IMG/VR virus record: IMGVR_UViG_3300010045_000009
Span: 1 to 29,290 of that record
Length of the DNA stretch: 29,290 nucleotides
Direction: 5' to 3' (one strand)
Source of the DNA: a virus
In this document: positions 4,750-8,306 of the stretch, piece after piece
Layout: each line of letters opens with the position of its first letter
Numbering within the stretch: position 1 is the stretch's first letter
Notes under the pieces: model-generated
Databases searched by the model: none
The model's input: the letters and a program-made list of their open reading frames with translations, nothing else
Told to the model about the DNA's origin: nothing
Translations under genes and position numbers: made by a program

Positions 4750-5235
4750 TTACGCGGCCTCCGCTCTGATCGGGTGGGTCCGGCCGTAGTCGGCCAGCAG
4801 GGCGGCCTCAGCGCGCCCGTCGTGCTTCTTCAGGCGCCATTGGTCGGCGTCCTGCGGGAAGCGCTGCGAGGCCAGTGCACGGGCTTCGTCCTTCCCCGCC
4901 GTGATCCCCATGAACCGCTTCCACGACTGCGGGGTGACCAGCAGGTAGGGGATGAAGTTCGACGCCAGCAGCATGCGCAGCGTGCCGAAGCCCACGCCGA
5001 CCTTGAAGGCCTGCGGTCCGCCGTCCGTGGGTCGCGCCCATTGGCGCTCTAGGACCGCGAACTCGATGTCGGGGGACCGGGCGTCCAGCAGCCGGGCGAG
5101 CGAGCCTTCATCGTAGTCCTGGCCCTTCTTGCCCTTGAAGACCGGCATGTCGAAGGTCTGCACCCTGCCCCGCACCATGAACGCGAGCGCCCCGTTCACG
5201 CCGGGGTCGATACCCAGGATGACGCCCCCGGCCAT
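4750..5235 (-). CDS. RuvC-like Holliday junction resolvase
   Basis: This 161-aa protein has the RNase H-like fold signature of RuvC resolvases: GVILGIDPGVNGALAFM (4-20) with catalytic Asp10, FAVLERQ (59-65) with Glu63, and KKHDGRAEAALLADYG (136-151) with Asp139 and Glu143. The family cuts four-way DNA junctions symmetrically. In phages it resolves branched replication and recombination intermediates before packaging. The start at 5235 (MAGGVILGID) was chosen because it overlaps the upstream HTH stop in a TAATG junction and places the first catalytic Asp at residue 10, as in other RuvC proteins. A longer in-frame extension would run through the HTH gene and lacks conserved features. Length is close to bacterial RuvC (about 170 aa). 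Confidence 0.87.
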   Translation of the reverse strand: MAGGVILGIDPGVNGALAFMVRGRVQTFDMPVFKGKKGQDYDEGSLARLLDARSPDIEFAVLERQWARPTDGGPQAFKVGVGFGTLRMLLASNFIPYLLVTPQSWKRFMGITAGKDEARALASQRFPQDADQWRLKKHDGRAEAALLADYGRTHPIRAEAA

Positions 5236-5459
5236 TAGGCCGCCTGCTCGCGACGCCGCTCTCTGCGAACCGCGTCCGCGACGCCCAGTTCGATCCACGT
5301 TGCTAGGCCAAGCTCGACGATCAGAAGCCAATATTCCGAGGGGATGCGCTCGCGCTGCCACCACGACTGAACCGTGGTCGGTTTCTTCGACAGGTTGAGC
5401 TTGCGGGCGACGACCGCCACGCCTCCGCCATCACGTATGACATCTCGATGACTGCGCAT
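5235..5459 (-). CDS. Small helix-turn-helix regulator (Cro/repressor-like)
   Basis: A 74-aa protein. VIRDGGGVAVVARKLNLS (residues 7-24) followed by TTVQSWWQRERIPSEYW (28-44) is the pattern of small phage HTH proteins that bind operators at early promoters: G-G-x-x-x-V-A, then T-V-x-x-W, then R-I-P-x-x-W. The C-terminus is basic (RRERRREQAA). It is the first gene leftward from the control region and its stop overlaps the RuvC-like start, so it could repress or activate its own operon. No good ribosome-binding sequence precedes the ATG at 5459; a leaderless or weakly translated transcript, as known for some phage repressors, is possible. Whether it acts as CI, Cro or CII cannot be told from sequence. 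Confidence 0.75.
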   Translation of the reverse strand: MRSHRDVIRDGGGVAVVARKLNLSKKPTTVQSWWQRERIPSEYWLLIVELGLATWIELGVADAVRRERRREQAA

Positions 5460-5548
5460 GATGGCCGATTCGTGCGCTCGAAAAAAAGACTTGGCAAGCG
5501 CAGTTTGAGTGCTAATCGAATCGCGTGGGACGAGTTTTGTGTTCTGTG

Positions 5549-5563
5549 AGTGCGCTCTGCACT
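5549..5563. promoter_or_regulatory. Candidate operator palindrome AGTGC-N5-GCACT
   Basis: Two perfect 5-bp arms separated by 5 bases lie about 90 bases upstream of the small HTH gene. The size and symmetry fit a dimeric HTH repressor site, but a single copy of short arms is weak evidence. Confidence 0.35.
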
Positions 5564-5591
5564 ATTCGCCTCCCTATTGTCCCGCTGACAA

Positions 5592-5657
5592 CTCACATTG
5601 CGTTAGACGTAACGACCACTTTACCAAGGGATTGACCTGAATTTTGCGCAATGTGAG
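5592..5657. repeat. 11-bp inverted repeat CTCACATTGCG / CGCAATGTGAG
   Basis: The arms at 5592-5602 and 5647-5657 are perfect reverse complements 44 bases apart and flank the TTGACC hexamer. The arms contain two of the three TCACATTG copies. The spacing is too wide for a simple hairpin and fits two operators facing each other around a promoter. Confidence 0.6.
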
Positions 5658-5802
5658 CACGTAACATGGATATGCCACGCCAAGTGATCCGTAATACAGC
5701 AAGCGTCATATCAAGGGATCGAGAGATGTCGGTGTGGTCAGCCCAGGAAAAGGACGTACAGTCGGCGAACGCGTTATTCGGGTTCGACCTGCCGGACCTT
5801 TC

Positions 5803-5828
5803 ACATTTGTTAATAACAAATGTTAACA
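5803..5828. promoter_or_regulatory. Nested AT-rich palindromes, candidate operator
   Basis: ACATTTGTT (5803-5811) and AACAAATGT (5815-5823) form a perfect 9-bp inverted repeat with a 3-base centre. A second dyad, TGTTAA (5808-5813) and TTAACA (5823-5828), overlaps it. Such overlapping dyads in a phage control region suggest regulator binding. No T-run follows, so it is not a standard terminator. Confidence 0.5.
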
Positions 5829-5953
5829 GCTTCACATTGTACTGGCCCGAAACCGCCACGCTACCTCAAGGTGCATATGTTTCGGATCGCATTCCGTGAT
5901 GGATAGACAACTCACTGTGAATAGGCGCTAATTGGGTTCCACTCGGGGTTGAG

Positions 5954-6643
5954 ATGGTAAAAACACGGTTCCCTGACGCACCGCCTCAGATTGCAGCCTT
6001 GCCGCTGGATCGACGGGGTTTTCCGACGCCATGGTTCGTGCCGTGGATCGACGGGGAGCCTGATTTTGTCGGGGTTAGACCTGAGAGAATTACCGAAGCC
6101 CGCACCCGCCGCCTCTGTTGGACCTGTGGTCAACCTCTAGGTGGTGTCTTCGCCTTCGTGATCGGGCCGATGTGCGCGGTCAACCGCGTCACCGCCGAGC
6201 CCCCCAGCCACCTTGCCTGCGCCCGCTTCGCCGTCACGGCCTGCCCGTTCCTGACGAAGCCGCTCGCCAAGCGCGGCGACAGTCCGAACGTGCCGCAGGG
6301 CGCCGAGAAGCCCGTCGCCGGGATCATGATCGAACGGAATCCGGGCGTGTCCCTGATCTGGCAGACGGGGAGCTACCGCTACCTGCGCGAGCCGGGGCCG
6401 AAAGACCGGCCGGTGGGCCTGTTCTTCATCGGGGCGCCAAGCCGCCTAGAGTGGTACGCGCACGGCCGCCGCGCCACCCGCGCCGAGGTCGTCGAAAGCG
6501 TCGAGACGGGGCTACCGAAGCTCGTCGAAATCGCCCGCGCCGAAGGCCCTGCGGCCGTGCGCGAGCTTAAGAAACTCATCGAACGCGCCGTGAAATTTCT
6601 CCCGGCTGAAGAGGAGACGACAGATGCCGCAGTCCAAGGGTGA
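5954..6643 (+). CDS. Conserved-type Cys-rich hypothetical protein (229 aa)
   Basis: The first gene rightward from the control region. Residues 52-100 carry a cysteine set likely to bind zinc: CWTC (55-58), then FAFVIGPMCAVNRVTAEPPSH (Cys74, His86), Cys89 and CPF (Cys97). I know similar CWxCG...GPMCAVNR...SEPPSH...CPFL proteins as uncharacterised genes in bacterial genomes and phages, with no assigned function. The middle (GVSLIWQTGSYRYLREPG) and the end (KLIERAVKFLPAEEE) look like an ordered domain and a helix. Only a weak purine stretch (GGGG) precedes the ATG. The gene starts beyond all the TCACATTG copies, so its promoter is probably controlled there. Function unknown. Confidence 0.8.
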   Translation: MVKTRFPDAPPQIAALPLDRRGFPTPWFVPWIDGEPDFVGVRPERITEARTRRLCWTCGQPLGGVFAFVIGPMCAVNRVTAEPPSHLACARFAVTACPFLTKPLAKRGDSPNVPQGAEKPVAGIMIERNPGVSLIWQTGSYRYLREPGPKDRPVGLFFIGAPSRLEWYAHGRRATRAEVVESVETGLPKLVEIARAEGPAAVRELKKLIERAVKFLPAEEETTDAAVQG

Positions 6644-6661
6644 AACGTGGGAGTAGTTGCG

Positions 6662-7036
6662 ATGATGGCTGAGCCCCGATCCTTCGGGAAGAACGTCAAA
6701 CCCGCCGCCTCGGAGAAAACGGGCGGCTACGTCTCGCAGGCCAAATGGGCGAAGCCGCTCCCGAGGCCCCGGGTCAACGTGATCCCGGCGCAGAGTTGGC
6801 TGGCCTATAACTGGATCGACAAAGACCCCGACCTCGAATTCGTGCTGTTCGCCATCGCCGAGTCGGGATGGACACTTGAGGCCATCGAGCGCGAAACCGA
6901 AAAGAACGGTCACAAGGTCAGCAAGTACACCCTCATCGCGTGGGACCAGGGCAGCACAAAGCGGCCCCAGAACGCCACGCTGAACAGCGTCATGGCCGCC
7001 ATCGGCTGGGACCGGCCTTGGGTCCGCCGATCATGA
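6662..7036 (+). CDS. Cro/CI-like helix-turn-helix protein (124 aa)
   Basis: The start at 6662 was chosen because GGGAG lies about 8 bases before it; an in-frame GTG five codons upstream has no such signal. The N-terminus (~40 residues) is basic and probably flexible. The C-terminal part, residues ~60-120, resembles a lambda-repressor-type HTH: ESGWTLEAIERETEKNGHKV, SKYTLIAWDQGSTKRPQNAT and LNSVMAAIGWDR. The helix pattern, the W-x-x-G-x-T-K-R-P-Q-N recognition/turn segment and the following L-x-x-V-x-x-A-I/L-G-W match XRE-family transcription factors. It probably binds operators in the nearby control region and may be the lysogeny or immunity regulator, opposing the leftward HTH gene. That role is inferred. 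Confidence 0.7.
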   Translation: MMAEPRSFGKNVKPAASEKTGGYVSQAKWAKPLPRPRVNVIPAQSWLAYNWIDKDPDLEFVLFAIAESGWTLEAIERETEKNGHKVSKYTLIAWDQGSTKRPQNATLNSVMAAIGWDRPWVRRS

Positions 7037-7055: not shown

Positions 7056-8306
7056 ATGCCGAAGACCCTCGACCCTGCCGACCTCGCGCGCTTTCTCGTC
7101 ATGGAGGGCGCAGCAGAGCTTATCGAAGCCTTCATGGGCATCCCCGAGGGAGCCATGCGGGACAGCCTGATAAACATCGCCCAGGTCACCCGGGACCAGT
7201 TTCTCGGGGGCATGAAGCAGCCCGACCCCTTGGGTCTGATCGGCGCGGCTGATCCGGTGAAGGCCTTGAGCGGCCCGCGCCGGGGACAGGCCCGCACCGA
7301 CGATCCCGAGGTTCGCGCCGTCCAACTCATGATCGAGGGCCGGACGCCGGTCCAGGCGGCGCAGGAAACCGGCCTCGACCTGAACAGCGTCCGCGCCGCG
7401 CACAAGGCGGCCAGGATGGGCGGGGTTGTCTTCCCGAACCTGAAGGCCTCTCAGAAGCCGAAGGGCACGGTCACCTTCATCACGAAGGTCGAGGAGCTGA
7501 ACAGCCAGAGCATGGCGATCATGTCGCGCACGGCGGCCGAGCGCGGGCTGACCTTGGAAGACTACCTGCACCGCCGCGCGACGGCGCTCAGCATGGCGAT
7601 GGAGGGCCGCCACGTCCGCGCGATCATGGAGGCCACGAAAGAGGCCAAGTCCGTCCTCACGTCGTGGTTCGCGTCGGCGCGGCAGGCCGGGTACGACGTG
7701 CCCTACATGATCGACGCGACCACGGTCCCGGTCGAGGAGGTCGCGGAGAACGTCGTCCCGATCCGGCCGCCGAAGCCCAAGGCGACGAAGGCGAAGAAGG
7801 GCAAGGGGAAGAAGAAGCACCCTCACCCGCCCTTCATCCTCACCATGGATCAGTACGCCATCGTCGGCGGGCTTCAGCGGGCGGGGCTCGACAAGGCGGC
7901 GAAGCACATGGGCGTGCCCATGGACGTGATGCTGCGCCTGCGCCGCGAGGCCATCGCCATGCTCGACCAGGGCGTGTCCACGCCAGAGGTCGCGACGGCC
8001 CTGAAGGTCCCGGAAACCCAGCTTGCCGCATGGCGCACGGCGGCGCAGGTGACCGGCGTGCTGGCGATGGCGAAGCACGACCCGGCGACCCTGATCGGCG
8101 CGCGCAACATGGGCGTCGAGCCCGAGGTCTACCTGAAGCTTCGCGATGAGGCCTTGGCGCTGCTGGACTCGGGCCTCGGCGCGAGCGAGGTCGCCCAACG
8201 CTTAGGCCTCGAAAGGCAGAAGGTGTCCAACTGGGGCACCTTCGCGACCCGGGAGCGGCGCGAGCAATATCCCAGCATTCGGGCGAAGACAGAGCCCCAA
8301 GCGTAA
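7056..8306 (+). CDS. Large protein with repeated helix-turn-helix-like units (416 aa)
   Basis: I do not recognise a named family. Several segments look like HTH units: residues ~85-120 (EGRTPVQAAQETGLDLNSV), ~284-330 and ~351-398. The last two align closely with each other (HMGVPMDVMLRLRREAIAML against NMGVEPEVYLKLRDEALALL, then S-x-x-E-V-A-x-x-L-x-V/L at matching spacing), so the C-terminal half arose by internal duplication with a period of about 67 residues. Residues ~238-258 are a very basic linker (PKATKAKKGKGKKK). The pattern suggests a multi-site DNA-binding protein, perhaps a phage-specific regulator, nucleoid-like or partition-type protein. AAAGGAG precedes the ATG at a good distance. 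The preceding HTH gene ends only 19 bases upstream. Confidence 0.75.
   Translation: MPKTLDPADLARFLVMEGAAELIEAFMGIPEGAMRDSLINIAQVTRDQFLGGMKQPDPLGLIGAADPVKALSGPRRGQARTDDPEVRAVQLMIEGRTPVQAAQETGLDLNSVRAAHKAARMGGVVFPNLKASQKPKGTVTFITKVEELNSQSMAIMSRTAAERGLTLEDYLHRRATALSMAMEGRHVRAIMEATKEAKSVLTSWFASARQAGYDVPYMIDATTVPVEEVAENVVPIRPPKPKATKAKKGKGKKKHPHPPFILTMDQYAIVGGLQRAGLDKAAKHMGVPMDVMLRLRREAIAMLDQGVSTPEVATALKVPETQLAAWRTAAQVTGVLAMAKHDPATLIGARNMGVEPEVYLKLRDEALALLDSGLGASEVAQRLGLERQKVSNWGTFATRERREQYPSIRAKTEPQA

Follow-up and report, generated by a model that had tools for sequence, protein, structure and literature searches.

In lambdoid phages, CI and Cro usually share operators, one example being phage lambda, whose OR and OL regions are bound by both proteins. 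Two more systems are relevant here. One is the Rac/CP-933P immunity region of E. coli (racR or paaR2, ydaS, ydaT), in which YdaS is considered the counterpart of Cro (PMC5917428, PMC9986795), and the other is N15/phiKO2, with its Cro and the immB operators, those of N15 being 16 bp long, with a TA-N10-TA pattern, and located beside cB (PMC4997575). The locus in question is part of a stretch of 29,290 bases of viral DNA (the window), an IMG/VR record. Like in Rac/CP-933P, a small YdaS-like protein appears to be in the Cro position, and in four relatives (L020, L023, L026, and L044) an HTH repressor is encoded divergently from the ydaS-like gene. Unlike in Rac/CP-933P, the window has no repressor gene beside the switch, and its ydaS-like gene heads a resolvase/primase operon; no YdaT homologue was identified in this comparison. 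Like lambda, the window possesses several dyads that overlap presumptive early promoters flanking a cro-like gene, with five core sites between divergent operons, recurring in two relatives, but unlike lambda it has no adjacent divergent cI gene, by profile search, its sites extend over about 420 bp, and its dyads, for which binding is only predicted, are short, of a 5-3-5 type, versus the 17-bp operators of lambda. As to N15, its Cro is among the best structural neighbors of the Cro-like protein of the window, and its operators are located next to a replication gene, as are those of the window, but the sequences of the N15 operators and of the window dyads are not recognizably related. Overall, the locus appears to be a real control region with multiple operators, for the most part ordinary for a temperate phage; what is unusual about it is that no CI gene is adjacent.

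The divergent control region spans 494 bp (5460–5953), between the ydaS-like gene on the minus strand and the gene for a 229-aa protein (orf229) on the plus strand, an order that is the same in relatives, and its G+C content is 50%, versus about 65% in the neighboring genes. The first gene of the left operon encodes a Cro/YdaS-like predicted DNA-binding protein of 74 aa (5235–5459, minus strand), the second a RuvC-like Holliday junction resolvase (4750–5235, minus strand; PHROG 1770, E 2e-28), and further on the operon contains more genes and a primase-helicase. The right operon, on the plus strand, starts with the 229-aa protein (5954–6643), conserved in relatives, followed by a 129-aa protein with an XRE-type HTH in its C-terminal half (6647–7036), as judged by alignment, by a structural model, and by Foldseek with low E support, and by a 416-aa protein with several HTH domains (7056–8306; Pfam HTH_29 and HTH_23 above cutoffs), which diverges fast among relatives (31–43%). 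Farther right, an excisionase-like gene and an integrase are present, indicating a temperate phage. This layout agrees with the original prediction of a phage switch region with divergent early promoters, the repeats discussed below being located between two operons led by phage regulatory genes. The portal gene runs off the right end of the window, and relatives are 39–43 kb long versus its 29,290 bases; the record is probably incomplete. The nearest portal proteins in databases, which include those of Paracoccus and Rhizobium phages, share only about 35% identity with it, a nucleotide search of phages produced no match, and alignments of the RuvC-like and the 129-aa proteins confirmed no prophages in isolate genomes. 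The relatives, identified through scans with the encoded proteins, are uncultivated phages that share the order of the genes flanking the gap: L019 (contig shared with L009), L027 (L013), L028 (L011), L020–L023, L026, and L044. A small ORF within the gap (5666–5899), covering two of the motifs, has a codon-position G+C unlike that of the phage genes and no homologue in the relatives, and it is therefore treated as non-coding.

The original prediction was centered on an 8-mer, TCACATTG, and the elements it described are all in place: three exact copies (5593–5600 and 5832–5839 on the plus strand, 5649–5656 on the minus strand), a near copy, TCACATTT (5801–5808), a palindrome, TCACTGTGA (5912–5920), and a perfect 11-bp inverted repeat (arms 5592–5602 and 5647–5657). 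However, comparison of the gaps of the window and its relatives points to a dyad of approximately 13–15 bp with a 3-bp spacer, and not the 8-mer, as the true repeat unit, with the consensus of roughly ACKCA-N3-TGMGT and the core of YKCA-N3-TGMR. The 8-mer reads as TCA-CAT-TG, and two of the sites share the spacer, on either strand; since each site is near-palindromic, the 11-bp inverted repeat represents two copies of one site on opposite strands. Putative operator O1 (AGCGCA-GTT-TGAGTG, 5497–5511), with an exact core at 5499–5509, ranks fifth in the whole window with a matrix built from the relatives, and it is located directly 3' of TTGGCA (5491–5496), within a segment conserved with L027. 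Putative operator O2 (AACTCA-CAT-TGCGTT, 5590–5604), preceded by CTGAC, contains the first TCACATTG copy and ranks second and first in the whole window with two relatives' matrices, and second with a matrix from L028 only. Putative operator O3 (TGCGCA-ATG-TGAGCA, 5645–5659) contains the minus-strand copy, with an exact core at 5647–5657, and is symmetrical in 5 of 6 pairs. The operator-like dyad O4 (ACCTCA-AGG-TGCATA, 5863–5877; exact core at 5865–5875) ranks third in the whole window with the relatives' matrix, and putative operator O5 (AACTCA-CTG-TGAATA, 5909–5923), which contains TCACTGTGA, ranks first with both the relatives' and the L028-only matrices. The centers of O1 through O5 are separated by 93, 55, 218, and 46 bp. 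The symmetry of O1, O4, and O5 is moderate (2–4 of 6 pairs), which counts against the operator model. The third exact TCACATTG (5832–5839, plus strand) corresponds to the dyad CTTCA-CAT-TGTAC, with one core mismatch, and is therefore a weak site at best, and the near copy at 5801–5808 is included in an AT-rich imperfect palindrome, TTCACATTTGTTA-A-TAACAAATGTTAA (5800–5826), of a geometry other than that of the operators and probably a separate feature. As to the motif members originally listed, those at 5593, 5649, and 5912 fall within dyads, those at 5801 and 5832 fit the dyad poorly, and the sites at 5499–5509 and 5865–5875 had been missed.

A presumptive promoter of the right operon, TAGACA and GCTAAT separated by 17 bp (5904–5932, plus strand), was recognized by eye, being below the threshold of the sigma-70 scan, and in the window the O5 dyad fills its spacer. 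The start of this operon aligns in three phages as GACAAC(T/G)CA-N3-(T/C)GA(A/G)T, immediately before the 229-aa gene, and at the O5 position, after GACAA, the half-sites are conserved among the window, L027, and L028, while the 3-bp spacer is wholly different (CTG, ACC, and TTC). Such dyads, positioned inside promoter-like sequences, look like repressor operators. Two results count against the operator model: no promoter was detected by the sigma-70 consensus scan, and no leftward promoter was located. About 30 bp before the ydaS-like start, a CTTGGCAAG palindrome (5489–5498) is present that is conserved in the window, L027, and L028; a -35 box and a second binding site are candidate roles for it.

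We consider it fairly likely that the TCACATTG repeats belong to a group of some five palindromic operators in a divergent early control region, probably bound by the 5235–5459 protein, with both early operons being shut as a result. The sites, their clustering, their recurrence in relatives, their location following -35-like boxes, and the Cro-like character of the neighboring protein are directly seen. Promoter activity and repression are inferred, as are binding and the binder itself: the small Cro-like protein, as a dimer, would bind the YKCA-N3-TGMR dyads and, with O1 beside its own gene and O5 inside the presumptive right promoter, would turn both early operons off by blocking RNA polymerase, O2 and O3 serving as extra copies mid-gap. 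The earlier proposal of a phage operator set in a divergent region is thus retained as far as the multiple copies and the location and geometry conserved in relatives are concerned, with the dyad replacing the 8-mer as the unit and with a binder that is only predicted.

The best candidate for this binder appears to be the Cro/YdaS-like protein. It matches the carph-isopro family (NCBIfam NF046037) with 42.8 bits versus the cutoff of 38, and Pfam YdaS_toxin with 19.8 bits, under the cutoff of 30. Its model is a confident five-helix fold (pLDDT 89.5), for which Xfaso 1 Cro and N15 Cro, the second of them a structure solved on its operator, are the best structural matches, although the modest scores (Z of 5.5–6.7, Foldseek E of 0.15–0.8) count against the model; a PDB sequence search with the Cro-like family produced no match. 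In four phages, HTH identity to the Cro-like protein of the window declines (74% for L027, 50% for L028, 41% for L019) in the same order as does half-site similarity (ACKCA in the window, ACGCA in L027, ATTCA/ACTCA in L028, and TGACA in L019). This co-variation may be taken as an indication that the two are connected, although primase similarity tracks the operators equally well, which counts against the Cro-like protein as the binder.

Less likely, while still to be taken seriously, is that these are operators of another protein, such as the 129-aa XRE-type protein, the 416-aa multi-HTH protein, a host regulator, or a CI whose gene is not on the contig. The 129-aa and the 416-aa proteins are both encoded in the regulated operon and are present in the same phages. 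However, the HTH of the former is closest to that of L019 (80%), whose half-site differs the most, and this lack of agreement with the operators makes the 129-aa protein a weaker candidate, while the 416-aa protein is disfavored by its fast divergence. A CI gene could lie outside the 29 kb of the window, considering the larger size of the relatives, and a CI-YdaS fusion gene is present in the contig of L028, away from the switch; against this, a profile search of the contigs detected no CI homologue in the window, L027, or L019. As to a host regulator, one would expect its sites to be alike in different phages.

The distribution of CI-type genes among the relatives also bears on the role of the Cro/YdaS-like protein, our preferred binder. 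In L020, L023, L026, and L044, an HTH_3/HTH_31 repressor gene (about 190–200 aa) is encoded on the strand opposite to the ydaS-like gene, with its start 108–159 bp from the latter; this is the CI/Cro arrangement, in which the ydaS-like gene of these relatives occupies the cro position. No repressor gene is found beside the ydaS-like gene in the window, L027, L028, or L019. One speculative scenario, to which we assign a rather low probability, is that in the window, L027, L019, and perhaps L028, CI has been lost from the switch, and that a lone Cro/YdaS-like protein, acting on fast-changing dyads, would serve as the main regulator of the early genes and would determine immunity specificity. The fusion gene of the L028 phage is a single ORF (L057:10507-10935, minus strand; also G002:C1:11954-12373) that joins a CI-like HTH to a YdaS/carph-isopro-like HTH. 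Large ORFs are present between the ydaS-like and the 229-aa genes in three relatives (L021:3116-4312, L022:4006-5127, L026:3498-5027), so the gap takes up varied genes; by eye, these appear to resemble DNA cytosine methyltransferases.

A replication origin upstream of the primase-helicase operon, with the repeats as its iterons, is improbable. The AT-rich gap does adjoin replication genes, the repeats are found in both orientations, along with the AT-rich palindrome at 5800–5826, and primase similarity follows site similarity, but the dyads are spaced irregularly, at the distances given above, rather than being phased direct repeats, the sites directly follow -35-like boxes, with one keeping its place before the right operon, and a sharp GC-skew switch is not seen at the gap.

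As to the rarity of the repeats, the 8-mer had been thought to be expected far less than once by chance, and this holds for the specific word, whose expected count is 0.03 per 494 bp at the gap composition, with only three exact copies in the whole 29,290 bases and none outside 5593–5839. However, since this word was selected post hoc, the fair question is how often any 8-mer occurs at least three times, which is the case in 129 of 3000 random sequences of the composition of the 494-bp gap (4.3%), so that the 8-mer by itself is only mildly unusual; perfect inverted repeats of at least 11 bp are found in 17 of 2000 random sequences (about 0.9%). Allowing one mismatch, TCACATTG is not enriched in the whole window (13 matches versus 10.5 expected), with 6 of the 13 located within 5593–5993. 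Conservation in related phages, another expectation, does not apply to the exact TCACATTG, which is absent from the control regions of the relatives, nor was the exact gapped inverted repeat CTCACATTGCG-N30-60-CGCAATGTGAG found in the viral contigs searched, but the location and the geometry of the dyad do recur. The bare 8-mer is weak evidence, and the dyad containing it is much stronger.

The core YKCA-N3-TGMR is found 13 times in the window, with 5 matches inside the 494-bp gap, for which the remainder of the window predicts 0.14. The same gap contains 3 matches in each of L027 and L028 (0.07–0.08 expected), out of 15 in the whole contig in each case; it contains one match in each of L021 and L022 and none in L019, L020, L023, L026, or L044. 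A matrix of seven L027/L028 sites, picked by eye after the window sites had been seen, places four of its top five window matches in the gap, its second-best score being equalled in none of 5000 gap shuffles and reached by two of 720 column permutations, one of which is the real matrix. Because of this order of selection, a dyad derived de novo from L028 alone presents a cleaner test: the best such dyad ranks 5910 first and 5591 second among all window positions, and its top two places in L027 also fall in the control region, with p of 0.0035 and 0.002 (window and L027, respectively) for the second-best score in shuffled regions. Four competing L028 dyads, also derived de novo but differing in spacing, did not transfer to other phages. 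A blind joint search of the three phages over all spacings produced ACTCA with the spacing of 3 as the best dyad, at p of 0.10 overall and 0.02 at this spacing alone, and this counts as weaker, only suggestive, support; per-phage de novo scans that used no cross-phage information were not significant, L028 being marginal. The 42 kb of L019 contain only two matches to TGACA-N3-TGTCA with up to one mismatch, and both lie in its control region; this is suggestive only, the choice of this word having been made by eye. That a short word has clustered in an AT-rich gap by chance, for which the 4.3% of random sequences with any 8-mer present three times could be invoked, is very improbable given that independently found dyads transfer between phages.

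With these dyads, the 8-mer gives way to an operator model that can be tested and that predicts sites in three or four uncultivated phages. It provides a likely DNA target for the carph-isopro/YdaS-like family, none having been found in the literature searched, where the carph-isopro domain is not mentioned, and it suggests how the switch may be wired in phages that possess an integrase but no CI gene beside cro. Another small dyad, AGTGC-GCTCT-GCACT, is present in the gap of the window (5549–5563), with a look-alike, TTGGTGCGTTCTGCACCAA, in L027 and another, matching in 16 of 17 bases, on the other strand in L044.
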